Notes under the pieces: model-generated
The model's database searches: none
The model's input: the letters and a program-made list of their open reading frames with translations, nothing else
What the model was told of the DNA's origin: nothing
Position numbers and translations under genes: made by a program
Part shown: piece by piece, positions 7,215 to 34,335 of the stretch
How positions within the stretch are numbered: the first letter of the stretch is position 1
How the letters are laid out: every line of letters begins with the position of its first letter
Origin: Candidatus Aquicultor sp.
GTDB lineage: Bacteria; Actinomycetota; Aquicultoria; Aquicultorales; Aquicultoraceae
Assembly (NCBI GenBank): GCA_036504445.1
Contig: DASXVE010000004.1
Coordinates: 1 to 34,335, forward strand
Direction: 5' to 3'
DNA: 34,335 bases

Positions 7215-7703
7215 CTAACTTGCCTGCTCGCGCTCGATTTCTTTCAGGCTGTCGTTAATCTCCTTGAGGACAAACTCCTTGAGCTTATCCATCTTCGCCT
7301 CGACGGCGGGAGACAGCTCCTCGCCCCAGTCGATTCTTTCCGGCTCGATGCCGAAAATCATCGTCGGAGGCAATTTATCCAACGCTTCCGCCAGCCTGAT
7401 AAAGTCATAAATACCAAGGTCGTGGAACGATATCTTGTACTCACGCGGGATAACATCGACCTTGTCAGGCTCAAATCTGAAAATGCTGCCCGGCTCGGAG
7501 CCGGCTTTAATGCAATCGACAATGATGAGCTTTGCGACGTCGTCCATGTAGTCGAGTAATTCGAGCCCCTGCGTTCCGCCGTCTTCAATTTCGACATTGG
7601 CGGGCAGGTTCTCAGATTGGAGTCGGCGTACAAGATGTACGCCGACTCCCTCATCGCTAAGAATAAGATTTCCCACGCCTAAGACGAGGATCTTATCTTT
7701 CAT
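7215..7703 (-). CDS. hyaD: Hydrogenase maturation protease (peptidase family M52)
   Basis: The product is 162 residues from the ATG at 7701-7703. A further four in-frame codons from a TTG have no better site. The family signature is complete: GVGNLILSDEGVG with Glu18, IIVDC with Asp63, and SFHDLG with His94. These are the three nickel-sensing residues of HybD-type proteases. The enzyme clips the C-terminal tail of the large subunit once nickel is in place. Here the tail would be the 15 residues after His502 of the adjacent large subunit. The start overlaps the 3' end of the cytochrome gene by 11 bases, which suggests translational coupling. It is the last gene of the operon. Confidence 0.93.
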   Translation of the reverse strand: MKDKILVLGVGNLILSDEGVGVHLVRRLQSENLPANVEIEDGGTQGLELLDYMDDVAKLIIVDCIKAGSEPGSIFRFEPDKVDVIPREYKISFHDLGIYDFIRLAEALDKLPPTMIFGIEPERIDWGEELSPAVEAKMDKLKEFVLKEINDSLKEIEREQAS

Positions 7704-8283
7704 CAGCAACCCCAAAGAACATTAGTTTGATCTTGTCCCACTCTTCCGAAGCACCCATATAGAAATGGATGACCGTAAACATGATGAAGAACCACATCAA
7801 GAAGAGATGCAACTGGCGAACGGCTTGCAGCCCGCCAAGAATGTTCCCTACAAACGCGATGGAACCCGAAGCGTTGTAGAAAAGCGCAAGACCCGTAAGG
7901 ATCTGGACAATGTACAGAACAGCCAGGAACAAATAGGTCGTGTTCTGCAGAATTCGATCTTGCATGCCCTCGGGCCAGTGGTCATACATCAGATAGTGAC
8001 GGCCTGTTGCCTTGAGAACTTTGCCGTTAAACCATCTCTGTGCGATGTACTTCCTCCAGTCACCGCCTTTACCGAAGAACGCCCAGTACACACGAAGCAT
8101 GAAGTTCGTGGTAAATATCCACATGAAGATGAAGTGAGTCAGCCTCATGAAACCCATGCTGAACGTAGCGGTCATAAACGGGCTGTGAATGTACCAGCCT
8201 GATATTGAGAGCGCGATAATGCTTATGAAGTTGATCCAGTGATATATCCGCCTTGAGACGGAAATCTCGGAACTTTTAGCCAT
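7693..8283 (-). CDS. hyaC: [NiFe]-hydrogenase b-type cytochrome subunit
   Basis: The product is 196 residues with four hydrophobic spans at about 17-35, 45-68, 113-138 and 155-177. Candidate haem b ligands are His15, His50, His159 and His173, the last two in QLHLFLMWFF and VIHFY. This fits the HyaC/HupC family, which passes electrons from the periplasm-facing hydrogenase to the quinone pool. GGGGGTG precedes the start. The gene follows the large subunit by 13 bases and overlaps the protease gene, the usual order in group 1 uptake hydrogenase operons. Confidence 0.93.
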   Translation of the reverse strand: MAKSSEISVSRRIYHWINFISIIALSISGWYIHSPFMTATFSMGFMRLTHFIFMWIFTTNFMLRVYWAFFGKGGDWRKYIAQRWFNGKVLKATGRHYLMYDHWPEGMQDRILQNTTYLFLAVLYIVQILTGLALFYNASGSIAFVGNILGGLQAVRQLHLFLMWFFIMFTVIHFYMGASEEWDKIKLMFFGVADER

Positions 8284-8296
8284 TATTCACACCCCC

Positions 8297-9850
8297 TTAG
8301 CCGATTTGGAATTTCAAGATTTCGTTTGTCTTAGGTTCGATAATATGAACTGCACATGAAATACATGGATCGAACGAGCGAATGATACGAACAACGTTGT
8401 TCGGGTTCTTTGCATCCGGAACCGGTGCGCCGATAAGCGCTTGCTCCATCGGGCCCCTGACATTATTCTTATCACGCGGCGACATATTCCAGGTACCCGG
8501 AACGACGAGTTGGTAATTCTCGATCTTGCCGCCTTTGATGTTGATCCAGTGACCGAGCGCACCACGAGGTGCTTCGGTTAAGCCCTTACCCGTTGAGCTA
8601 TCCGGTACGTTCCACTTCGAGTCGTCGTGAATCTTGACATCGCCTTTGCCGACCATGCCGGTAAGCTCATCAAGCCACTTTGTAACGCCGTCGACGATGG
8701 TTAAGGTCTCGAGCGCGCGGGCTGCGTGACGTGCCACTGCGCCCGGCTTTACGCCCTTCTCGACAAGGCCCATGAGGGTCTCGTTCTGTGCTACGAGCAT
8801 ACGCGCGAGCGGGCCGACTTCCATCGCTTTGTCTTGATATCGAGGGGCTTTGATGAAGCTGTATGCTTTGTCCTTGTCGCGGTTTACTGCGGTCTCGCCC
8901 TGTGCGGGTTGGAGCGCGGCATCGCCGTCATACCAGGAGTAAGCAACATGCTCGGTGATTGCTTCCGGGTCGACTTTCTCGATACTTCCGAGATTGCCTA
9001 AGATAGCACCGGCCGGCAGCAACATATCGTCTTTGCTTGACGAGTTCTGGAAGCCGCCGTATGACAGGTAATTCAAACCGGAAACGCCGACATTTGAGGT
9101 AGCCAACTTAAGAAGCGGGCCGGTACCGAAGGTGACAACGTCTTTTACATAAACGTTCTTAACAAATGCGGCAACTTCAGCAAGAATACCGCGATATGCA
9201 TCGAGCGTCTGCATCGTCGGGTACATTGTGGTACCGCCGACAACGATTGATGCGTTATGCGGAATTTTACCGCCTAAGAGCGCCGCCATTCTCTTTGCCT
9301 TCGCTTGAATCTCGAGGCACTGGAGATAGTGCGCAACAGCGGTTGTAACAAGCTCTGGATCACTTACGTTCCACTCATCCGGCGCATAGCGAGGAGTGAG
9401 CGGAGCGGTATCGCCGGCTTGTACGAGTTTGACGATCTTACTCCGTACCGCCTTGAGGCCGGGATCGTTGCCTTTGTATTTAGCAACTGCCATCACATCG
9501 ATATAATCGAGTGCGGATAGATGATAGAAATGAAGCGGGTGGTCGTGAAGCCACATCGCACCTAGAATGAGGTTACGTACGAGTCTTCCGGCGTCCGGAA
9601 CATCCGCGCCAAACGCATCGTCGAGCGCGAGAGCCGATGCCCAGTTATGCGAACCCGAGCAAACACCGCAAACACGATCGGTTACATACGAGGCATCGCG
9701 AGGATCTCTCCCCTTCAGGAGTACCTCTAAGCCTCTAAACATATTGCCTTCCGACCAAGCGTCTTTAACTTTTCCGTTCTCGATCTCAACCGTAACGCCT
9801 AAGTGGCCTTCTATTCGAGTAACAGGATCAATTTTAATCTTTTGAGCCAT
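8297..9850 (-). CDS. hyaB: [NiFe]-hydrogenase large subunit, group 1 (membrane-bound uptake type)
   Basis: The product is 517 residues. Nickel ligands are intact: the L1 motif RVCGVC (Cys61, Cys64) near the N-terminus, and DPCISCAVH (Cys496, Cys499, His502) near the C-terminus. The 15 residues after His502 form the tail removed by the maturation protease encoded two genes later. The opening KIKIDPVTRIEGHLGV and the group 1 sequence around SFDPCISCAVH are typical. The subunit holds the Ni-Fe(CN)2CO site that splits H2 and has no signal peptide of its own; it should be exported with the Tat-tagged small subunit. GGGAGG lies ten bases before the ATG. The finer group 1 subclass is not decided here. 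Confidence 0.96.
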   Translation of the reverse strand: MAQKIKIDPVTRIEGHLGVTVEIENGKVKDAWSEGNMFRGLEVLLKGRDPRDASYVTDRVCGVCSGSHNWASALALDDAFGADVPDAGRLVRNLILGAMWLHDHPLHFYHLSALDYIDVMAVAKYKGNDPGLKAVRSKIVKLVQAGDTAPLTPRYAPDEWNVSDPELVTTAVAHYLQCLEIQAKAKRMAALLGGKIPHNASIVVGGTTMYPTMQTLDAYRGILAEVAAFVKNVYVKDVVTFGTGPLLKLATSNVGVSGLNYLSYGGFQNSSSKDDMLLPAGAILGNLGSIEKVDPEAITEHVAYSWYDGDAALQPAQGETAVNRDKDKAYSFIKAPRYQDKAMEVGPLARMLVAQNETLMGLVEKGVKPGAVARHAARALETLTIVDGVTKWLDELTGMVGKGDVKIHDDSKWNVPDSSTGKGLTEAPRGALGHWINIKGGKIENYQLVVPGTWNMSPRDKNNVRGPMEQALIGAPVPDAKNPNNVVRIIRSFDPCISCAVHIIEPKTNEILKFQIG

Positions 9851-9869: not shown

Positions 9870-10916
9870 CTACTTTTTGTCTTTATTGCCGAGAACAAGG
9901 CGACCGGCTCCGTGTACAACCGCACCAACGGCTGCGACACCGACAAGCGCCTTGCCTGCTGTATCGATATTGACACTCTTGCCGACACCATTGAAGATGT
10001 CTTGTTTGTCGTAGAGCGGTGAGAAGCCGCCGTAGAACTCAGGCTGCGAGCAGCCTGCACACGGTGCGCCGGCGCCGATACACCAGTTTGCGCCCTCGTT
10101 CCACCATACTTTGGCGCAATCGGTGTATGTCTTCGGACCTTTGCAGCCTTTCAACAGCAAGCAGTAATCACGCTGTGCCGGATCGTTCCAGTCCTGGAGA
10201 AAGTGACCGGCTTCAAATTGACCCCTGCGCGGGCAGTTGTCATGCAGAAGCTCGCCGTAGAACGCAAGCGGCCTGTTGAGTTTATCCATAGCCGGGGCCT
10301 TGCCTGATGCGAGATAGTACATGATTGTAGCAACCAGACGAGCCGGCTTAACCGGGCAAGTCGGCAGGTTGATGATCGGTTTGTCCTTAATGAAATATGC
10401 AACCCCTCTGCCCTTTGACGGGCTTGCCCCAGGGATGCCGCCGTTAAATGTCGCGCATGAACCGGCAGCGATAATGACGGCCGCATTCTTGGCTGTCTCG
10501 GTGAGAACTTCCTTAAATGACTTGCCACCGACCGTGCAGAACCTGTCGTCTGCCGCTGGGATTGAACCTTCTACTACGAGAACGTAGCCGCCCTCTTCCA
10601 TGGTCTTTAGGCGTGCTTCTTCTGCTACTGCACCCGCACCGGCCATGACGGTTTCGTGATAGCGGAGCGAGATTGTACCCAGCAACAACTCCGCCAACGA
10701 TGGATTGAGAGTAGCCAAGAATGACTCGCTGCAACCGGCGCAGTCTTGACCTTCGAGCCAGATTACAGCGGGTTTTTTCGTGGCTGCCTCAGCTGCAAAA
10801 GCAATGTCTTTTGCGAACGCTTTCGGCATTCCGAAAACGGCCGACACCGCGGCACAGAACTTAACGAAGTCCCTGCGCTCTATTTGCTTTGCAGCTAGCT
10901 CTTCCAATAACCCCAT
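9870..10916 (-). CDS. hyaA: [NiFe]-hydrogenase small subunit with Tat signal and membrane anchor
   Basis: The product is 348 residues; GGAGGTG precedes the ATG. The twin-arginine signal is ERRDFVKF (Arg14, Arg15) followed by a hydrophobic stretch to about residue 36. Cluster ligands are all recognisable. The proximal 4Fe-4S cluster uses Cys59, Cys62, Cys153 and Cys187. The distal cluster uses His225, Cys228, Cys252 and Cys258. The medial 3Fe-4S cluster uses Cys267, Cys286 and Cys289. There is one extra cysteine (Cys279) but no sign of the six-Cys proximal cluster of oxygen-tolerant enzymes, because only Cys59 and Cys62 occur near that site. A C-terminal hydrophobic segment (about 320-342) anchors the complex beside the cytochrome. 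Electrons from H2 pass through this chain to HyaC. Confidence 0.95.
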   Translation of the reverse strand: MGLLEELAAKQIERRDFVKFCAAVSAVFGMPKAFAKDIAFAAEAATKKPAVIWLEGQDCAGCSESFLATLNPSLAELLLGTISLRYHETVMAGAGAVAEEARLKTMEEGGYVLVVEGSIPAADDRFCTVGGKSFKEVLTETAKNAAVIIAAGSCATFNGGIPGASPSKGRGVAYFIKDKPIINLPTCPVKPARLVATIMYYLASGKAPAMDKLNRPLAFYGELLHDNCPRRGQFEAGHFLQDWNDPAQRDYCLLLKGCKGPKTYTDCAKVWWNEGANWCIGAGAPCAGCSQPEFYGGFSPLYDKQDIFNGVGKSVNIDTAGKALVGVAAVGAVVHGAGRLVLGNKDKK

Positions 10917-10950: not shown

Positions 10951-11376
10951 TTAATTATTTATGAGGCATATATGACCCTCTTTGATGGTAAGAGGGAATG
11001 CTTCCAGGGTGCACTCGACTTGCTTATCTTTGTATATAATATAATGCTTTGTACCACAAGCACTGCAGTACAGAGCGTTCTCTTGCGGTAAGTGTATAAG
11101 CAAGAAACCGTCTGTGCCACAAAGCGCGGGAAAAGCGGTAAGATTTTTGCCTACCTCGCCGACTATAAAAATGGGAGGTTTGCTCGATGTGAGAAGCTTC
11201 GGCTCATTCCGATATTCGCTCACGGGGATAAGGGTTTGATAGAGCAACTTATGCGCCGTATTCCCCAAGGTTTGGAATGGTTCGACAAAGTTCTCTGCAG
11301 CTTCCGACGCCGCAGCGACTCCTCTACCAAAGATGTATTTAAAGAATTCTGCTCTGTCTATGGCTTTATCTTCCAT
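10951..11376 (-). CDS. Small Cys-containing protein heading the hydrogenase operon (Rieske-like remnant or metal-binding protein)
   Basis: The product is 141 residues from the ATG at 11374-11376; a TTG four codons upstream is the alternative. I do not recognise the family. The N-terminus (DRAEFFKYIFGRGVAAASEA) resembles the leading helix of exported redox proteins but has no twin arginine. Residues 65-141 look like a small beta domain with Cys86, then Cys104-x2-Cys107-x3-His111, and later Cys122 and Cys137. The layout (LCGTDG, then LYCSACGTKHYI) recalls the two ligand loops of a Rieske domain without the canonical C-x-H pairs. It could bind iron-sulfur, zinc, or nothing. It lies 34 bases upstream of hyaA and is the first gene after the promoter, so a role in electron transfer or assembly is likely but inferred. 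Confidence 0.7.
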   Translation of the reverse strand: MEDKAIDRAEFFKYIFGRGVAAASEAAENFVEPFQTLGNTAHKLLYQTLIPVSEYRNEPKLLTSSKPPIFIVGEVGKNLTAFPALCGTDGFLLIHLPQENALYCSACGTKHYIIYKDKQVECTLEAFPLTIKEGHICLINN

Positions 11377-11741: not shown

Positions 11742-12740
11742 CTAGCAGATCCTGGGTAGGATCTCACCGCGCGGTGCGGGTAATATGCGTTTCGTTCCCC
11801 ATTCTGTCTCAACCCTGACAACGGCTTTGCCGCCCACGACTTCGCCGATGACAGCGGCGTCTTCGCCTGCCGGATGATCTTTCAGCAAGAGCAGCGCCTC
11901 GGGCGCCTTGTGCGGTGCTACGGCAAAAATCATTTTGCCTTCATTCGCCATATATATGGGATCAAGACCAAGAAGGGCGCAACCGCCCTTAACTTCCTTT
12001 TTGATGGGGATGAGGCTATCGAACACGAGAATTCCCCGGCCGCTTTGCTGCGCCCACTCGTTTACAACCATACCGAGACCGCCCCTGGTTGCATCGCGCA
12101 CAGCGCGTATACCATCGCCAAGAGGTGCAAGCAAGCCCACCAGCTCGTTCAACGGCCGGCAATCACTTATGACCGAGCTCTTGATATCGATGCCTTCGCG
12201 CAGCGCCATAATGCAATAACCGTGGTCGCCGATGCTGCCGCTCACGATAATTATGTCACCGTCTCGAATATTGCGGGGGTGGTAATCTATTCCCTCCGGG
12301 ATAACACCGATGCCGGACGTCGAGATAAAGACCTTATCGGCACTACCCTTGTCGACGACTTTGGTGTCGCCGCACACTACCGGGATGCCGGTTTCTTTTG
12401 AAATAGCGCCCATACTCTGGGCGATTTGTTTGAGGCCAGCGATATCGACGCCTTCCTCGATGATGAACGATGCGGAAAGCGCTACCGGGCACGCACCTGC
12501 GGCGGCCAGGTCGTTAACCGTACCGCAAAACGCCAGTTTGCCGATATCGCCGCCAGGGAAAAAGATCGGGCTGATTACAAACGCATCGGTGGTAAACGCC
12601 GTCTTGCCGGCCGGCAGGTCTATAACTGCAGAATCATTCGCATTTTTACCGTCGCTACCGAGAGCGGAGAAAAACACCTCCTCTATAAGACGCGCGGTCA
12701 TTTCACCGCCGCTGCCGTGAGCCAGGCGAATCTTATCCAT
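11742..12740 (-). CDS. hypE: Hydrogenase maturation factor HypE (thiocarboxamide-forming dehydratase)
   Basis: The product is 332 residues from the ATG at 12738-12740 (MDKIRLAHGSGG, the family's usual opening). A longer frame to 12779 lies inside hypD. The C-terminus is PRIC, whose terminal cysteine receives the carbamoyl group from HypF and is dehydrated with ATP to a thiocyanate, the source of the Fe cyanide ligands. The AIRS/PurM-type ATP-binding fold shows in VCGDTKVVDKG and DATRGGLG. The start overlaps the hypD stop by eight bases (ATGGATAA). It is the last gene of the hyp group and no clear terminator follows. Confidence 0.95.
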   Translation of the reverse strand: MDKIRLAHGSGGEMTARLIEEVFFSALGSDGKNANDSAVIDLPAGKTAFTTDAFVISPIFFPGGDIGKLAFCGTVNDLAAAGACPVALSASFIIEEGVDIAGLKQIAQSMGAISKETGIPVVCGDTKVVDKGSADKVFISTSGIGVIPEGIDYHPRNIRDGDIIIVSGSIGDHGYCIMALREGIDIKSSVISDCRPLNELVGLLAPLGDGIRAVRDATRGGLGMVVNEWAQQSGRGILVFDSLIPIKKEVKGGCALLGLDPIYMANEGKMIFAVAPHKAPEALLLLKDHPAGEDAAVIGEVVGGKAVVRVETEWGTKRILPAPRGEILPRIC

Positions 12741-13875
12741 CGAGATCATCGCTCCCCTGATAGAGGTAGTAAGCAGCACAGGTACCTTCGGATGACACCA
12801 TGCACGGGCCTACCGGGTTGTCGGGAGTGCAGCGCTTATCAAACAGCGGGCACTGGATCGGTTTAATCGTTCCCTTCAGGATATCGCCGCAGCGACACCC
12901 CGGGAAGAGTTTTACTGGTTGTTTTTCTACATTGAATTTCTTAACGGCGTCAAACGCGGCGAATTCGTTGCGAAATGCAAGGCCACTGCCGGGGATAACA
13001 CCAATACCCCGCCACTCGGCGTCACACGGCTCAAACGTATCGGCCAGGAGTTTCTGCGCCACCACGTTGCCTTCCGGGCGAACGGCGTGCCGGTACATAT
13101 TTGAGATGCTCGGCGTGCCGGCGTTGATATCTTTAACAAGACGCACCAGCGCCGCCATAATCTCCGGTGGCTCAAATCCGGCGATCGCACCCGAGATACC
13201 GTATTCTTCGGCGATAAACCTGTACGGTTTCTCACCGATGATAATGCTAACGTGACCAGGCAAGATGAAGCCGTCAATTTGGGCTGCTTCGTCATCCAGG
13301 AGCACTTTCAGCGCGCCCGGAACGGTCTTATGAAGATTAAAAACGCTGAAATTTGCCAAGCCCTCTTGAGCGGCTATTGTGATTGCTTGCGCTGTCGCGG
13401 GGGCCGTCGTTTCAAAACCGACGCCTAAAAACACGACTTCTTTGCCTTTAACGCTGCGGGCAAACTCAAGCGCCTCCAGGGCTGAATAGACAACCCGGAT
13501 GTCGGCGCCCTGCGCCTTAAGCTCGGCAAGACTGCCCTCGGTACCGGGCACACGAATCATATCACCGTAGGTCGCGAGCAGGATGTTTGGGTTACGCGCT
13601 AGACGCATAAATACGTCGATATCACTATCCGCGGTTACGCACACCGGGCAACCCGGCCCGGAAATGAGTTCGATCTGCGGCGGCAGTACGCTTCTGATCC
13701 CGCTTTTACCAATCGCCATGGTGTGCGTGCCGCATACCTCCATGAGTTTCACGGGGCGTTTCGCTATCTGCCACAACTTTTCGTTGAGTTTCTTAAAATA
13801 CTGGTCGAGGCCCTTATGTGCGTCTACAGTGTTCACACTGGGATTATCGGTTTTCATAGGGTTATCAGCTCTCAT
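12733..13875 (-). CDS. hypD: Hydrogenase maturation factor HypD
   Basis: The product is 380 residues. It shows every family landmark: MEVCGTHT (Cys48), SGPGCPVCV (Cys76, Cys79), GFETT, and near the end PGCRCGDILKG and GPCMVSSEGTCAAYY, which supply the 4Fe-4S cluster cysteines. HypD forms the scaffold with HypC on which Fe(CN)2CO is built. The ATG at 13873-13875 overlaps the hypC stop by 11 bases. A second ATG six codons on is possible. Direct coupling with hypC and hypE fits equal production of the three partners. Confidence 0.96.
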   Translation of the reverse strand: MRADNPMKTDNPSVNTVDAHKGLDQYFKKLNEKLWQIAKRPVKLMEVCGTHTMAIGKSGIRSVLPPQIELISGPGCPVCVTADSDIDVFMRLARNPNILLATYGDMIRVPGTEGSLAELKAQGADIRVVYSALEALEFARSVKGKEVVFLGVGFETTAPATAQAITIAAQEGLANFSVFNLHKTVPGALKVLLDDEAAQIDGFILPGHVSIIIGEKPYRFIAEEYGISGAIAGFEPPEIMAALVRLVKDINAGTPSISNMYRHAVRPEGNVVAQKLLADTFEPCDAEWRGIGVIPGSGLAFRNEFAAFDAVKKFNVEKQPVKLFPGCRCGDILKGTIKPIQCPLFDKRCTPDNPVGPCMVSSEGTCAAYYLYQGSDDLDG

Positions 13876-26494: not shown

Positions 26495-27298
26495 CTAGCT
26501 GTCCATCACAGCCCTTATTTCGGATATATAGGACACGGCGGTTTCCACACAGGTTTCGCCGGCGTTTCCGATCAAGCTGATAAGGGCGCTGCCGATGATA
26601 ACACCGTCAGCTATCCCGGCAATCTGCTTCGCTTGCTCCGGTTGGGAAATCCCAAAACCGACCGCAAGCGGCTTGTCGGTCACTTTTCTAATCCTTTTAA
26701 TAAAATCGGCTAAATTGGCAGGAAGATTAGCCCTTGCACCTGTCACACCGGTAAGTGATACGCAATAAATGAAGCCGCTCGACATACGCGCGATGTTCCT
26801 CAGGCGGTCCTCTCCGCTTGTCGGGGTAGCAAGCATGACGGTTGCGATGCCATAGGTCGCCGCGGTATGCCGCCACGGGTCCGCTTCTTCCGGTGGCAGA
26901 TCAGGGCAGATTACACCGTTTACTCCCGCTTCGCCGGCATTAATCGCAAAGCGTTTCATACCGTAGCGGTAGATGATGTTATAGTACGTCATGATGACGA
27001 TTGGTGTTGCGGTATGCTGCCTTGCTCTTCGTACCAGCTCGAACGCGGTATCGGTCGTAACGCCGTTTGCGAGCGCGCACTCGGCCGCAGCTTGTATTGT
27101 TGGGCCGTCCGCCAGTGGATCAGAGTACGGTATGCCGAGCTCGATTAGGTCGGCACCGGCTTCAGCAACGCCGGTGATGAGTTTAAGCGATGCTTCGATA
27201 TTCGGAAAACCGGCCATAAGATAAGGCATGAGCGCGGCCTTGTTGCCGGCACGCAGCTGCTCGAAAAGATCGTCGATTGCATTTGTTTTCATCAGCAT
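26495..27298 (-). CDS. trpA: Tryptophan synthase alpha subunit
   Basis: The product is 267 residues. Catalytic Glu53 is in LIELGIPYSDP and Asp64 in LADGPTIQ (Glu49 and Asp60 of the Salmonella enzyme). The phosphate-binding loop region GFGISQPEQ and GVIIGSAL are present. It cleaves indole-3-glycerol phosphate to indole, which passes through a tunnel to TrpB. The ATG follows the trpB stop immediately with no gap, so translation is coupled. A second ATG two codons on is equally possible. Confidence 0.97.
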   Translation of the reverse strand: MLMKTNAIDDLFEQLRAGNKAALMPYLMAGFPNIEASLKLITGVAEAGADLIELGIPYSDPLADGPTIQAAAECALANGVTTDTAFELVRRARQHTATPIVIMTYYNIIYRYGMKRFAINAGEAGVNGVICPDLPPEEADPWRHTAATYGIATVMLATPTSGEDRLRNIARMSSGFIYCVSLTGVTGARANLPANLADFIKRIRKVTDKPLAVGFGISQPEQAKQIAGIADGVIIGSALISLIGNAGETCVETAVSYISEIRAVMDS

Positions 27299-28495
27299 TT
27301 AAAGATCAACCCCTAACACACCGGCTACCACTTGAACATCTTTGTCGCCCCTGCCTGACAGATTAATCACTACAACATCGTCTTCAGAAAGCTCGGGCAT
27401 GAGCTTCTCCAGATACGCAACTGCGTGCGAGCTCTCAAGCGCGGGCAGAATGCCTTCCGTCGTGGCAAGCAGCTGAAACGCCGCAAGGGCTTCCGTATCG
27501 GTTACGGTGCCGTATTCCGCCAGACCGTTTTCCTTCAAGTAGCTGTGCTCGGGACCGATCCCTGGGTAATCAAGACCTGCCGAAATGGAATGCGCCGGTA
27601 GAATCTGCCCGTATTTGTCCTGCAAGAGATAACTTAAGCTGCCATGCAACACCCCTTTGTCACCCATCGTAAGCGACGCGCCGTGTTGGCCGGTTTCAAG
27701 CCCGCAGCCTGCCGGCTCGACACCGATTAGGCGAATGCCATCCCCTATAAACGGATAAAACATACCGATTGCATTGCTGCCGCCGCCCACACAGGCGATA
27801 ATTACATTCGGCATCCTTCCCTCAACCGATTGTATCTGTTTCTTGGTCTCTTCGCCGATAATGCTCTGAAAGTCGCGAACCATCATCGGATACGGGTGCG
27901 GGCCACCGACCGAGCCGAGCATGTAGTGCGTGGTCTCAACGTTGGTCACCCAATCGCGGATCGCCTCGTTCATGGCGTCTTTAAGCGTGCGCGTGCCGCT
28001 TAAGACCGGAATTACTTCAGTGCCGAGCAAGTTCATGCGAAATACGTTGAGCGATTGGCGTTTTGTATCCTCTTCACCCATGTAGACCTGGCATTCTAAA
28101 CCGAAAAGTGCTGCCGCAGTTGCGCTCGCCACGCCGTGCTGGCCGGCCCCGGTTTCAGCAATAATTCGTTTCTTGCCCATGCGTTTGGTTAAAAGCGCCT
28201 GGCCGATAGTATTGTTGATCTTGTGCGCACCGGTATGGCAGAGGTCTTCGCGTTTTAGATAGATCTTGGCTTTATCATAGTGCTCGGTCAACTTCTCGGC
28301 AAAATAAAGGTTTGTCGGCCGTCCTATATATTCACGCTGGTAGAAGGCAAGCTCTTCTTGAAATTCACGGTCACTTTTTACTTCCGCATAGGCTTCTTCC
28401 AGCTCGGACAGCGCGGTCATCAGCGTTTCCGGCACGAATTTGCCGCCAAATTCACCAAAATGGCCGCGTTCATCCGGTAATGTGTAGTGCATCAT
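27299..28495 (-). CDS. trpB: Tryptophan synthase beta subunit (TrpB1 type)
   Basis: The product is 398 residues, starting [20 protein letters not shown], the standard opening of the alpha-partnered TrpB1. The PLP lysine is Lys92 in TGAHKINNT; Glu114 in ETGAGQHG and the phosphate-binding [10 protein letters not shown] are in place. It condenses indole and serine to tryptophan in a complex with TrpA. Its start lies 26 bases inside the trpS reading frame. A second, TrpB2-type enzyme is encoded upstream in the same operon (30300-31634). Confidence 0.97.
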
Positions 28496-29477
28496 ATTTC
28501 AATCCCATCCGTTCTTTAACTTCACTCAGCGTTTGGGTGGCTATTGTGCGTGCCCTCACGCTGCCTTCAACAAGAACCCGCTGGACGTACTCGGGTCGAA
28601 CCGAAAGCTCGAGACGCCGGCCGCGTATCGGGCCCAGAGCGCTGATTATATCATCTGCGAGTTTTTCTTTCATATCCGAGTAGCGGATTTTCCCCTGCTT
28701 GTAGAGCGTCAAAAAGTGCTCGTACGTCTCACGCGACGAAAATGCGTGCATTAAATCAAACAGATTTCCGGTTCCCGGGCTCATTTCACCACCGGTAAGG
28801 CCGGTATCGGTAACCGCCCTCGCAAGCTTGCGCCTGATTTCGTCGGGAGGGTCCGCCAAAGCGATATAGTTTTGCGGCCCTAAGCTTTTACTCATCTTTC
28901 GCTCCGGTTCCGTAAGCGACATCACGCGGGCTCCAGGCCCGAGGTACTCTTGTGGTTCAGGGAACATATCGCCGTACCGTGCGTTAAATGCCCGAACGAT
29001 TTCCCGTGTGAGCTCCAGGTGGGGCAACTGATCTTCGCCGACCGGAACAATCGAGCTTTTGTACAGCATGATGTCGGCCGCCATTAACACCGGATAGCTC
29101 AAAAGCCCCATGTTAACGCTGATGTGAAGCTGCGCCGCCTTATCTTTATAGGTCGGAACGCGCTGCAGCCACGACGCCGGTGTAACCGTATTTAAGAGCC
29201 ACGCCATCTCGGTGTGCTCGGGAACGAGCGATTGGATCATCAATGTGCTCTTCGCCGGGTCAAGACCGGCGGCCAGGTAATCGAGCGCGGTATTAAACAC
29301 GCGCTGCCACATATCTGCGGGGTTATACGGCTCGGTTATTGCATGATAATCAACGATACCAAAAATGCCCTCGTACGTGTCTTGCAGCTCGATCCAACTC
29401 TTAATAGCGCCGAGATAGTTGCCTATATGCAGCTCCCCGGTAGGCTGGATGCCGCTAAAGAACCGTTGCCCATCCAT
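28470..29477 (-). CDS. trpS: Tryptophanyl-tRNA synthetase
   Basis: The product is 335 residues. It is a class I synthetase with HIGN (17-20) and KMSKS (194-198), and [18 protein letters not shown] is specific to TrpRS. It charges tRNA-Trp. The stop overlaps trpB by 26 bases, and the start follows the trpF stop by nine. Its place inside the trp operon is unusual. Under a tRNA-sensing T-box this would give feedback, since more synthetase raises charging and closes the operon. The ribosome binding site is weak (GAGGGA, 14 bases away), so it probably relies on coupling from trpF. Confidence 0.96.
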
Positions 29478-29486
29478 AACGATCGA

Positions 29487-30143
29487 TCATCCCTCGCATT
29501 CCTTGATGACCTTCATGAACTCGCGCATCCTATATCTATCCTTTTTGCCCGGCTTGATTTCTATGCCGCTGCTCACATCAACCGCGTAGGGTTTAACAAC
29601 CTTAACCGCGAGCGCCACATTTTTATGGTTGAGGCCGCCCGCCAAAATCAACGGTTTACGAGATTCGAGGTTGCGCACCAGCTCCCAATTGAGGTGAAGG
29701 CCCGTACCACCGTACTGACCGCGCGCGTAGGCATCAACGAGAAACGCCGCGACATTAGCGCTCGGGTCCAACAGCGTTTCCGCTTCGAATTCGTTTTCGT
29801 GGAATATCCACTCCTCGATCTCGGTATAGTTTTTCATCCGAAAAGCTTTGATGACTTTTTGTTTAAACAGGCGGCAGTAAGACGCGGTTTCTTCGCCGTG
29901 AAATTGCAGCACATCGAGCCCGCAATACTCGCCGATCGTCTTTACCTCGCCTGCCTGGTGATTTACAAACACACCGACGGTCGTCACAAACGGTGGCAGC
30001 TCCTTTATTATGCGTGCCGCCGCTTCAGGTTTAACTTGCCTTGGGCTCTCGGCAAAAACAAATCCGACAGCGTTGGCGCCCAAATCGACGGCCAGAAGCG
30101 CATCTTCGGTATTTGTGATACCGCATATCTTTACCCTTGTCAC
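29487..30143 (-). CDS. trpF: Phosphoribosylanthranilate isomerase
   Basis: The product is 218 residues from a GTG at 30141-30143 with GGAGG eight bases upstream; a GTG eight codons earlier lacks such a site. General base Cys7 is in VKICGIT and general acid Asp137 in FLVDAYA. VLQFHGEE and LILAGGLNHKNV are conserved. It turns N-(5'-phosphoribosyl)anthranilate into CdRP for TrpC. It is separated from the upstream trpB2 gene by 156 bases containing a large inverted repeat. Confidence 0.95.
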   Translation of the reverse strand: MTRVKICGITNTEDALLAVDLGANAVGFVFAESPRQVKPEAAARIIKELPPFVTTVGVFVNHQAGEVKTIGEYCGLDVLQFHGEETASYCRLFKQKVIKAFRMKNYTEIEEWIFHENEFEAETLLDPSANVAAFLVDAYARGQYGGTGLHLNWELVRNLESRKPLILAGGLNHKNVALAVKVVKPYAVDVSSGIEIKPGKKDRYRMREFMKVIKECEG

Positions 30144-30198
30144 GTTTTCATCCTCCAGCTGAAACACGAAATAAAATACCTAGCGGCTGTCCCTCCCG

Positions 30199-30263
30199 TA
30201 GCGGTTGGGCATATGCCTGCTATCAAATGCTCTAACGCAATGCATACCATTATCCAACCGCTA
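30199..30263. repeat. Inverted repeat in the trpB2-trpF spacer
   Basis: TAGCGGTTGG (30199-30208) pairs perfectly with CCAACCGCTA (30254-30263) around a 45-base loop. The loop opens with part of the palindrome GGCATATGCC (30207-30216). Further TAGCGG copies flank it at 30181 and 30301. No T-tract follows, so it looks like an mRNA processing or stabilising structure and not a terminator. Confidence 0.5.
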
Positions 30264-30299
30264 GGCGCATCTATCCCGTCTAGCTAGAATGCACGTACT

Positions 30300-31634
30300 C
30301 TAGCGGTTATCTTCACTGCAAGCAGCCATCGAGAAGTTATAGTCCTTCAGCTCATGCTTAAGATAACTATCATAGGCCGTCATGTCGAAGTAGCCGTTAC
30401 CGCTTAGGCAGAAGAGAATTGATTTCTCTTCGCCGGCTTCCTTCGCTTTGAGCGCCTCGTCGATAGCACCGCGAATAGCGTGCGAACTCTCAGGCGCCGG
30501 GATGATACCCTCGGCTTTAGCAAACAGGACGGCTGCGTCAAATACATTGTTCTGGTTATATGCCGCTGCTTCAATTATACCCTTGTCATAGAGCAAGCTC
30601 ACGATCGGCGAATCGCCGTGATACCTCAAGCCACCGGCATGTATGCCTGCCGGTACGAATTCATGGCCGAGAGTGTACATCTTAACAAGCGGTGTCATAC
30701 CCGCTTCATCAGCTAGGTCATACCTGAACTCACCTTGGGTAAGCGTCGGGCACGCAGACGGCTCAACTGCCACGATTCGCGTGTTCTTTCCAGCGAATTT
30801 ATCCTGGATGAACGGGAAGCTTATGCCACCAAAATTGCTTCCGCCGCCACAGCATCCGACAACAACGTCCGGATAATCTCCCGCCATTTCCATTTGTTTC
30901 TTTGCTTCAAGGCCGATAATCGTCTGGTGCAAGAGCACATGATTAAGAACGCTGCCCAGACAATAATGTGTGTCATCGCGCTTAACGGCCTCTTCGACCG
31001 CCTCACTGATCGCGACACCGAGGCTACCCACCGTATCCGGATACTCAGCGAGAATGCGGCGCCCTGCGTCCGTGGTATCGCTCGGGCTCGCAAAGACCTT
31101 CGAGCCGTAAATCTCCATAAGCGAGCGACGATACGGTTTTTGCTCGTAACTCACCTTTACCATGTACACAACAAGCTCAAGGCCAAAGAAATTCGTCGCC
31201 ATCGCCATAGCACTGCCCCACTGGCCTGCGCCGGTTTCGGTCGTTATTCTCTTTATACCTTCCTTCATGTTGTAGTATGCCTGCGGGATAGCCGTGTTTG
31301 GTTTGTGACTTCCCGTCGCGTTGACGCCCTCATACTTATAGTAGATCTTTGCCGGTGTATCGAGAACTTTCTCGAGTCTGCGCGCTCTATAAAGCGGCAC
31401 CGGACGGTAGAGCTTGTAGATCTCCTGCACTTCTTCAGGGATCTCGATATAGCGCTCTGTGCTTACCTCCTGCTTGATGAGCTCTTGGGCGAACAGCGGT
31501 GCCAAATCGCCCGGCTCAACCGGCCGGTTAAGTGCCGGATGCATGTACGGCTCCATCTCGTACGGCATGTCCGCCAGTATGTTATACCAGGCTGTCGGCA
31601 TCTCCTTTTCGGTTAATAGAATTTTGCTGTCCAT
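30300..31634 (-). CDS. trpB2: TrpB2-type tryptophan synthase beta chain
   Basis: The product is 444 residues from the ATG at 31632-31634, with AGGAG seven bases upstream; a frame 12 codons longer is possible. The PLP lysine is Lys111 in [18 protein letters not shown] and the phosphate-binding [10 protein letters not shown] are present. The longer N-terminus and HKPNT (instead of HKINNT) mark the TrpB2 branch, which does not pair with TrpA and is thought to use free indole. It may salvage indole or work with serine on another acceptor. Its place between trpC and trpF, with the TrpA-partnered TrpB1 further down, suggests both serve tryptophan supply. Confidence 0.95.
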
Positions 31635-31685
31635 AATAATACTCCTCTCTGTGCTTCTGGTAGTTTTCACTACGAATTTACATGT

Positions 31686-32471
31686 TTACCTTGCAGCTTT
31701 TATTAAATCTCCCAACTTTTGTTCCGGGTTACCGCTTTTTAGAAGCGACTCTCCAATTAAAAATCCTTGTGCACCGGCCGATATTAGCTGTCGTATATCA
31801 GCCGAAGTTTTAATACCACTTTCGCTGATTACAACACGATCTTCCGGCACTAGCCCAAGCAGTTCAAATGACGTGTCGAGATCGGTTGCAAGCGTATCGA
31901 GATTGCGATTATTAATCCCAAGCAATTTTGCGCCGCTTGCAATTGAGCGCTCAAGCTCGCTTTTCGTGTGCGACTCGAGCAGTACTTCAATACCTAAATC
32001 GTGCGCCAACCTCATAAACCGTGCGATCCGCTCGTCATCGAGAATCGCAGCGATGAGAAGGACTGCATCTGCTTGATGCGCCGCCGCCTCATAGATCTGG
32101 TACTCATCGACGATAAACTCTTTGCATAGCACCGGAACTGTTGTGTGCTTCCTTACTTCTATCATATCGGCGGGCGTACCGCCAAAGTATTTTGTATCGG
32201 TCAATACCGAGATGCCTGCCGCGCCCGCGCGTTCGTACATGGCCGCGAGCTCGGTTAGCGTATATTCGCATTTCATCTCGCCACCCGACGGCGAGCGCCG
32301 CTTGGTCTCAGAGATTATCGCCGGCTTGCGCCGCTTGGCTACCCTTAGGACAGACTCAATGAGACTCCTTCGCGTTGCACGGGCATCTATCTGCAATGAG
32401 TCGATAGGGCGCTCGTCTCGCGCCCGCGCTATGTATGCTTTTTTATCCGCGACAATCCGATCCAGTATCAA
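31686..32471 (-). CDS. trpC: Indole-3-glycerol phosphate synthase
   Basis: The product is 261 residues from a TTG at 32469-32471, preceded by GAGG. It is a TIM barrel with Glu55 and Lys57 in SETKRRSPSGG, the general acid Lys117 in LCKEFIVDEYQ, and GINNRNLDT and ISESGIKT near the phosphate site. It closes the indole ring of IGP from CdRP. It lies 26 bases after trpD and 51 before trpB2. It is monofunctional, not fused to TrpF. Confidence 0.96.
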   Translation of the reverse strand: MILDRIVADKKAYIARARDERPIDSLQIDARATRRSLIESVLRVAKRRKPAIISETKRRSPSGGEMKCEYTLTELAAMYERAGAAGISVLTDTKYFGGTPADMIEVRKHTTVPVLCKEFIVDEYQIYEAAAHQADAVLLIAAILDDERIARFMRLAHDLGIEVLLESHTKSELERSIASGAKLLGINNRNLDTLATDLDTSFELLGLVPEDRVVISESGIKTSADIRQLISAGAQGFLIGESLLKSGNPEQKLGDLIKAAR

Positions 32472-32497
32472 TCTCGTTCCTCTCAGCGATATCGTTT

Positions 32498-33517
32498 TTA
32501 AGCCTGCGTCCTCGCATTATATTCCTTAAGTGCCTCGAGCTTCTCGAATGCGTGCCCGCTGTCGATTGACTCCGCCGCCAGCAATATTCCATCGGCGAAG
32601 CAGGAAACCTTATCTGCCGCGAGCAGAGCGGCGGCGGCATTCATAATAACAATGTCGCGCTTCGGACCGTGCACACCTTTTAAGATATCGAGCGTAATCG
32701 CCGCGTTATCCAGTGCGTTGCCGCCCCGCAGGTCACTGCTGGCCGCACGCCTTAACCCGAATTCCTCGGGAGTAATCGTATAGGTGGAGACTTTGCCGAC
32801 CTTAACTTCTGAAATAATGCTTTCGGCGGTATTGGTTATCTCGTCAAGACCATCGCTTCCATGAACGACGAGAGCGTGTTTTACGCCCAGGTTATTAAGC
32901 ACTCTGGCCATGATTTCGGTTAGGGCCGGGTCGTAAACGCCGAGAACCTGAGCGGTAGCCCCGGCCGGATTCGCAAGCGGCCCGAGAATGTTGAATACCG
33001 TGCGAATACCGATCTCGCGGCGCGGACCGATCGCATACTTCATAGCTCCGTGAAAGGTAGGGGCAAACATAAAGCCGATACCGATTTCTTCGATGCTATC
33101 CTCTACCTGCTCCGGTGTTACATCAATTCGTATACCGAGCGCTTCAAGCACGTCGGCGCTACCGCTTTTGCTCGAAACCGACCGGTTACCATGCTTCGCA
33201 ACCGGAACACCGGCGCCGGCAACGACAAACGCGACGGTTGTTGAGATATTAAACGTAAATGCCTGGTCACCTCCAGTGCCGCACGTATCGACAATCTCTA
33301 CGACGTTCGGGTGTATCCTGCATGCGTTGTCGCGCATGCTTTTTGCAAACCCGGAGATCTCATCGACCGTCTCGCCCTTCATCCGCATTGCCGTTAAAAG
33401 CGACGCAATCTGAGCGGGTGTAGCTTCTCCGCCCATGATTTCGTTCATAACCTTCTCGGCCTGGTCTTTTGTTAGATGTCTGTTGTCAGATACCGCTTTG
33501 ATCGCTTCAACCAACAT
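32498..33517 (-). CDS. trpD: Anthranilate phosphoribosyltransferase
   Basis: The product is 339 residues; AGGAGG precedes the ATG. The PRPP-binding glycine loop DTCGTGGD (77-84) and [15 protein letters not shown] (108-122) are complete. [21 protein letters not shown] also matches the family. It attaches phosphoribose to anthranilate. It is a stand-alone enzyme, 16 bases downstream of trpG and not fused to it. Confidence 0.97.
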
Positions 33518-33533
33518 CTTGCCCCTCCTTAAC

Positions 33534-34124
33534 CTATCCGACCGCCAACATGCCCGAGCGAGTTCTGCTCAGGAAATTACGAAGAATCGTCTTGCCATCA
33601 CTGGTAAGAATCGACTCTGGATGAAATTGCACGCCTTCAACCGCAAACTCGCGATGCCGTACCGCCATAATGAGCCCGTCATGCGTTTCAGCGGATACTT
33701 CAAGGCAACCGGGAAGCGTATCCCGCTCAATGACAAGCGAGTGATATCGCGTCGCAACAAATGGGTTGGGCACGCCGGCAAATATAGTCGCTTCGTCATG
33801 GCAGACTTGCGATGTTTTGCCGTGCACGAGAACGCCCGCATGCACTACGTTTGCCCCGAACGCCTCACCGATGGCCTGGTGACCTAAACACACCCCAAGC
33901 ACGGGAATCCGGCCTGCGGCCGCCTGAATCAGCGCAACTGAAATGCCGGCGGCCGCAGGCCGGCCCGGCCCGGGAGAGATCACGATGTTATCAGGCTGCA
34001 TAGCGAGAACCTGATCGACCGATACCTCGTCATTCCGAAATACGATTAACTCCTCGCCCATTTCGGCAAGATATTGTACCAGGTTAAACGTGAATGAATC
34101 GTAGTTGTCGATCATCACAATCAT
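33534..34124 (-). CDS. trpG: Anthranilate synthase glutamine amidotransferase subunit
   Basis: The product is 196 residues from the ATG at 34122-34124 (GGAG seven bases upstream; the longer frame runs back into the T-box leader). It is a class I amidotransferase with catalytic Cys79 in [11 protein letters not shown], and His168 and Glu170 in [15 protein letters not shown] is typical of TrpG/PabA. It supplies ammonia to TrpE, and in some bacteria also to PabB. It is the first gene after the T-box. trpE would have to lie upstream of the window or elsewhere. Confidence 0.95.
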
Positions 34125-34194
34125 CGTAAAACTCCAATCGGTAAAGCGTAACTCACGCGCGATTTTAAGAATCGTTCCGTCAAAAATATCCCGG

Positions 34195-34335
34195 AAATAC
34201 AAAAAACCCTCAATCCCATATGGGACGAGGGTTAAATTTCTCGTGGTGCCACCCAATTTCACAGGCTCCTTGTGCCGGCTCTGCCGGTAAAAAGATGTGC
34301 CTGCCTCATTGTTCGAGGTACACGCAACATACTGA
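34195..34335 (-). promoter_or_regulatory. T-box leader (tRNA-Trp sensing, transcriptional) of the trp operon, 3' part
   Basis: On the minus strand the T-box sequence TTGGGTGGCACCACGAG spans about 34257-34241. Its bulge TGGC (34249-34246 region) would pair with an uncharged tRNA ending GCCA, that is with discriminator G as in tRNA-Trp. Upstream is the small stem III (CCGGC-AGA-GCCGG, 34287-34275). Downstream a terminator (AACCCTC...GAGGGTT, then six T's at 34206-34201) competes with pairing of GGGT to ACCC. Stem I and the specifier codon lie beyond the window edge. Uncharged tRNA-Trp should allow readthrough into trpG and the genes after it. Confidence 0.93.

Follow-up and report, generated by a model that had tools for sequence, protein, structure and literature searches.

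The 141-residue protein encoded immediately upstream of the [NiFe]-hydrogenase small subunit gene hyaA in Candidatus Aquicultor sp. is a member of a new protein family, associated with hydrogenases, that has the Rieske fold but an altered set of ligands. The gene was analyzed in a window of 34,335 nucleotides, the whole stretch of DNA under study, and compared with homologues from other genomes. No description of this family, referred to below as the accessory family, was found in a literature search that covered few subscription journals.

Gene context and occurrence of the accessory gene

In the window, the accessory gene stands between hypF-hypC-hypD-hypE and hyaA-hyaB-hyaC-hyaD (Table 1). 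Its stop codon ends at position 10951 and hyaA starts at 10916; the 34 nt between them include a good ribosome-binding site (ggaggtg). The earlier note on this DNA had placed a 141-residue protein 34 bases upstream of hyaA, which the ORF coordinates and the homologues bear out. On its further claim that this is the first gene of the operon the sequence speaks only in part: the gene follows hypE on the same strand after 365 nt in which no terminator-like site was seen, and the single promoter-like site was no better than expected by chance.

Table 1. Positions of the accessory gene, its sequence motifs and the neighbouring hydrogenase genes in the window
Feature	Position	Strand	Evidence
Rieske-fold hydrogenase accessory protein, 141 aa	10951..11376 including stop (coding 10954-11376)	-	homologues and fold
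N-terminal D7-R8-A9-E10-F11-F12, Tat-like motif with second Arg replaced	11341..11358	-	R8 and F11 in 14/14
First ligand-type loop C86-G-T-D89-G-F-L (C-x2-[DE])	11101..11121	-	C86 and acidic 89 in 14/14
Second ligand-type loop C104-S-A-C107-G-T-K-H111 (C-x2-C)	11044..11067	-	C104 and C107 in 14/14; aligns with Rieske C-P-C-H
hyaA, [NiFe]-hydrogenase small subunit with Tat signal	9870..10916	-	TIGR00391 4.9e-93; TIGR01409 at cut-off
hyaB, [NiFe]-hydrogenase large subunit	8297..9850	-	NF033181 7.6e-227, above cut-off
hyaC, cytochrome b subunit	7693..8283	-	PF01292 1.8e-21
hyaD, maturation protease	7215..7715	-	TIGR00072 8.5e-43
hypE, next upstream gene	11742..12779	-	AIRS domains

The ORF is more than a chance reading frame, because full-length homologues were found in other genera and in Bacillota, each upstream of hyaA. 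Identity to the window protein is 41-51% in other genera, including 51 and 47% in two genera of the same taxonomic family, both with the gene directly before hyaA, and 16-27% in Bacillota, among them Thermincola, Carboxydocella and further genomes known as MAGs. The set of 14 distinct sequences was assembled from the same-family matches, from Bacillota loci found by a HyaA search, from searches with a six-member profile, and from genome G411, again by way of its HyaA. A scan of the genome contigs with the single 141-residue sequence gave no match; the Bacillota loci were reached through the neighbouring HyaA, and in all of these that retain an unbroken upstream side a diverged relative stands before hyaA. 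All 14 genes lie upstream of hyaA, 13 of them immediately (gap -13 to 115 nt), and in Thermincola a hypC-like gene lies in between. The order hypE, accessory gene, hyaA recurs in G009 (on one contig) and G675, and in G008 the contig with hypFCDE also bears the start of the accessory gene. No relative away from hyaA was detected among about 800 sampled genomes, in which the profile otherwise retrieved only ordinary Rieske proteins. Weak matches in G189 and G002 were rejected: one was an unrelated protein with one C-x2-C on a phage-like contig, another a frame antisense to a sensor kinase, and the third a broken frame antisense to other genes; a match of 36 residues in L052 (3565-4401) was likewise discarded.

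The distribution of the gene was followed over a HyaA tree of 52 rows and a second tree with an outgroup, leaving L077 (G398, contig edge) and L079 (G400, broken hyaA) unscored for gene presence. The accessory gene is confined to one HyaA clade (support 99 SH-aLRT; 96/93 with the outgroup), in which 15 rows have the gene, 12 are without it and one is unknown. The earlier proposal of a protein specific to this hydrogenase lineage is thereby upheld, as all 14 homologues stand upstream of a group-1-type hyaA of this single clade. Four to five changes are required to explain this pattern, the simplest history being a single gain with three or more losses. There are three sub-lineages without the gene, and members read from two of them have an intact hyaABCD. 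Since these branches keep hyaABCD and G573 has the gene with hyaAB but no hyaC, the accessory gene travels with the core of the hydrogenase, not with its cytochrome. Only two HyaA columns track gene presence, both weakly and confounded by descent.

Several neighbouring loci are worth recording. In G573 (L101, 3008-9752), formate dehydrogenase subunit genes, the accessory gene, hyaA and hyaB form one run without hyaC, possibly an exported formate-hydrogen complex. Two same-family genomes (G004 and G002; L043, L055) have a different hyaAB at the hypFCDE locus, without the accessory gene; compared with the window, the hydrogenase has been swapped at a fixed maturation locus. The G004 enzyme at this locus has no cytochrome b, and its large subunit reads DP-U-x2-C and is therefore a selenocysteine enzyme. 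A second hydrogenase in the genome of the window (L060, G000 contig C24, 143000-153000) likewise has DP-U-x2-C with an in-frame TGA and is an [NiFeSe] enzyme. Relatives from the same class or phylum without the accessory gene (L045, L047, L048, L049, L054, L058) carry a tatC-like gene directly before hyaA, often preceded by a tatA-like gene; the slot before hyaA seems to attract export-related genes.

Rieske fold and ligand loops

Searches with the single 141-residue sequence gave no Pfam match above the cut-off and none in NCBIfam or the PDB, and PF00355 matched only weakly in four of 13 members (best E 2.9e-5) and not in the window protein. Profiles were more sensitive: one of six members found Rieske proteins in the PDB at E=1.4e-7, and one of thirteen members at E=2.2e-11, nearly all its other matches also being Rieske proteins. 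The AlphaFold2 model from six sequences has a mean pLDDT of 78; most blocks within residues 51-140 average about 90-96, and its N-terminal helix is of low confidence (pLDDT < 50, residues 18-41). Foldseek and VIA-align placed Rieske domains at every top rank, the best structural match being 9rk4 (Z 10.8, rmsd 2.4 over 88 residues), with 8hn2 at Z 10.0 (residues 44-141). Because profile match, model and structural ranks agree, we assign the beta domain to the Rieske fold, in keeping with the Rieske comparison that the earlier note drew from the placing of the Cys and His residues. Neither of the outcomes which that note named as refuting its idea, homologues lying mostly away from hydrogenases or a predicted fold unrelated to small beta-barrel redox domains, was observed. 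Residues 44-141 thus share their fold with the proteins of PF00355, including those of cytochrome b6f/bc1 type, AioB and the Rieske ferredoxins.

None of the profiles for HypA, HyaE/HyaF or the rubredoxin HoxR (Pfam, NCBIfam) matched above the cut-off, in line with the earlier statement that no standard hydrogenase accessory protein fits. The profile of the nitrite reductase subunit NirD (TIGR02378) reached E 0.032 at best, in two members. Zinc-ribbon membership was rejected, the matches at C-x2-C being unspecific and far under the cut-off.

The window protein contains Cys at 86, 104, 107, 122 and 137 and His at 42, 95, 111 and 135. Cys86 and C104-x2-C107-x3-H111 lie where the earlier note had put them, and the profile alignments agree with its view that the cysteines are placed like the Rieske ligand loops but without the C-x-H pairs: the two Cys ligands of Rieske proteins are matched by Cys86 and Cys104, the first His ligand by residue 88 and the second by Cys107. 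The spacing C-x17-C between the loops is also common to Rieske proteins and the accessory family, two members of which have C-x16-C. The ligands themselves differ. The accessory family has C-x2-C in place of C-x2-H in all members, so that C-x2-H occurs in 0/14, and a residue other than His in C-x-H in 12/14; residue 88 is T, K, A, E, Q, D or R, and His only in Carboxydocella and G629. The window protein has neither C-x-H nor C-x2-H, and with C-x-H...C-x2-H complete in none of the 14 members, the defining Rieske motif is absent. The family motif is instead C-x2-[DE]-x13,14-C-x2-C. Of the residues singled out earlier, Cys86, Cys104 and Cys107 are invariant (14/14); His111, found in 4/14, is a lineage feature and was dropped as a family ligand, and an acidic residue at 89 completes the invariant set. 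Residue 89 may be the fourth ligand; an acidic residue at the equivalent position also occurs in some soluble Rieske proteins. The natural series C-x-H, C-x-E, C-x-Q and C-x-T, each with C-x2-C, offers a way to learn which metal centre a Rieske fold holds without histidines.

The N-terminal motif

The N-terminal motif of the family is R-[A/G/K]-x-F-[F/L], residue 9 being A in 12 members, G in one and K in one, but never R. When the accessory-family profile was run over Actinomycetota it retrieved ordinary exported Rieske proteins; in several of them the match starts at the twin-arginine motif, which thereby aligns with the Tat-like motif of the family, RR standing over R8-A9. Membrane-anchored Rieske proteins of bc1/b6f type differ in that all 14 members of the accessory family, with R-[AGK], are without the twin Arg and have a charged helix in place of the hydrophobic membrane segment: the 25 residues after the motif contain 4-9 charged residues, compared with 0-2 in the anchors of canonical Rieske proteins. 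Of 14 genomes with the accessory gene, 13 encode TatC. The absence of the second Arg and the charged helix, despite the presence of TatC, point to a cytosolic location, in the compartment of HyaAB maturation. On the simplest reading of these sequences, the family would be Rieske proteins that remain in the cytosol after loss of the export signal. They may derive from an exported Rieske protein, as a short alignment suggests.

Proposed role, rival explanations and known systems

Our preferred reading, which we put at a probability of about 0.48, is that the accessory protein is a cytosolic assembly or maturation factor for one exported [NiFe]-hydrogenase lineage and serves mainly HyaA, its presumed client. 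The ancestor would have been a Tat-exported Rieske protein which then lost export and in which Cys107 and a variable residue took the place of the two His ligands, and the three Cys and acidic residue 89 would form a putative metal site for [2Fe-2S] or Zn. The protein may use the N-terminal helix, with its R-A-x-F-F motif, to bind HyaA ahead of Tat export, and could there deliver or protect iron-sulfur clusters, keep cysteines reduced, or hold the precursor until the clusters are in place. A sharper form of this proposal, in which a Rieske fold re-ligated to Cys3-Asp/Glu and with a disabled twin-arginine motif acts as a dedicated cluster-delivery or Tat-proofreading partner of the small subunit in the cytosol, appears rather unlikely to be right in all its parts. 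Against an assembly role counts the loss of the gene in three sub-lineages, so that it must be dispensable for some relatives.

An electron-transfer subunit, with which the same observations would also agree, is a possible but doubtful alternative. The protein would cross the membrane on the Tat signal of HyaA, as the large subunit does, and a [2Fe-2S] cluster on three Cys and one other ligand would relay electrons between HyaA and a partner. The Rieske fold with its conserved metal-type site would suit this, as would the position among structural genes, above all in G573, where the gene lies between that of the formate dehydrogenase iron-sulfur subunit and hyaA, without hyaC. HucE and HhyE have moreover been proposed as electron acceptors (PMC6883350). 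Most of these operons, however, contain hyaC, and gene-less relatives keep hyaABCD, which disfavours an obligatory link in electron flow from HyaA to HyaC. In known enzymes of the HyaABC type, electrons go straight from HyaA to HyaC. The accessory protein also lacks an export signal of its own and the His ligands that set the Rieske potential. An assembly factor fits better than an electron carrier because the exported enzyme already has a cytochrome b.

A non-redox domain in which three Cys and a fourth ligand hold Zn, with the Rieske fold as a protein-interaction module in a structural or chaperone role, is quite unlikely. It would account for the weak zinc-ribbon matches at C-x2-C, but these are unspecific and the whole domain matches Rieske proteins. 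Some support for this explanation comes from a Rieske protein reported to have been crystallised in a form containing Zn (PMC10492824). NirD provides another precedent, with a Rieske fold that has lost the canonical ligands, as here, and its structures are among the structural matches. The fold of NirD is functional without a cluster; the accessory family differs from this cluster-less protein in keeping three invariant Cys and a hydrogenase context. It is very improbable that the protein is a regulator sensing redox or metal status for the hydrogenase operon, or a decaying remnant: the loss of the gene in three sub-lineages would agree with either, but there is no DNA-binding part, and five positions are strictly conserved over 14 divergent proteins.

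The nearest functional precedent is HucE/HhyE of Mycobacterium smegmatis. Both are encoded in hydrogenase structural operons and required for H2 oxidation; hydrogenase activity depends on them even when the acceptor is artificial, and the authors of that study leave both electron transfer and assembly open (PMC6883350). The C-terminal motif is CxH..CxxC in HucE, and HhyE has two CxxC (PMC6883350). Like HucE, and putatively HhyE, the accessory family combines a Rieske-type domain containing C-x2-C with a place in a hydrogenase operon. HucE and HhyE differ in carrying a NifU-like domain, whereas the window protein is a single chain of 141 residues with no NifU match, in lying downstream of group 2a and 1h structural genes rather than upstream of hyaA, and in serving hydrogenases without cytochrome b, whereas the window operon has hyaC and its HyaB matches NF033181 and Desulfovibrio-type enzymes. 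Five actinobacterial proteins (L120, L122, L126, L129, L134) combine a NifU-like part with a Rieske-like end (CPPGS..CPWH; CPGC..CPGC in L129) and are probably HucE/HhyE relatives.

HoxR/HupI, HoxO/HupG and HoxQ/HupH are cytosolic, hydrogenase-specific assembly factors of the exported small subunit. Their role resembles that proposed here, but their folds and sequences are different, and the rubredoxin HoxR has two C-x2-C pairs where the accessory protein has one. For the small subunit of [NiFe]-hydrogenases, less is understood of cluster insertion, and of how export is delayed until then, than of NiFe-site assembly. The accessory protein is an easily tested candidate for this step in HyaA, and the family occurs in the cultured anaerobes Carboxydocella and Thermincola.

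The closest solved homologue of the window HyaA is the D. vulgaris small subunit. HyaA has Cys279 in place of the medial-cluster Pro of D. vulgaris Miyazaki (NWC vs NWP), as in [NiFeSe] enzymes, and three [4Fe-4S] clusters are therefore expected; the extra Cys of oxygen-tolerant enzymes are absent from it. Elsewhere in the window, a trp cluster (26495-34262) contains two tryptophan synthase beta genes (27299-28495 and 30300-31670) and, at 28470-29477, a tryptophanyl-tRNA synthetase-like gene.
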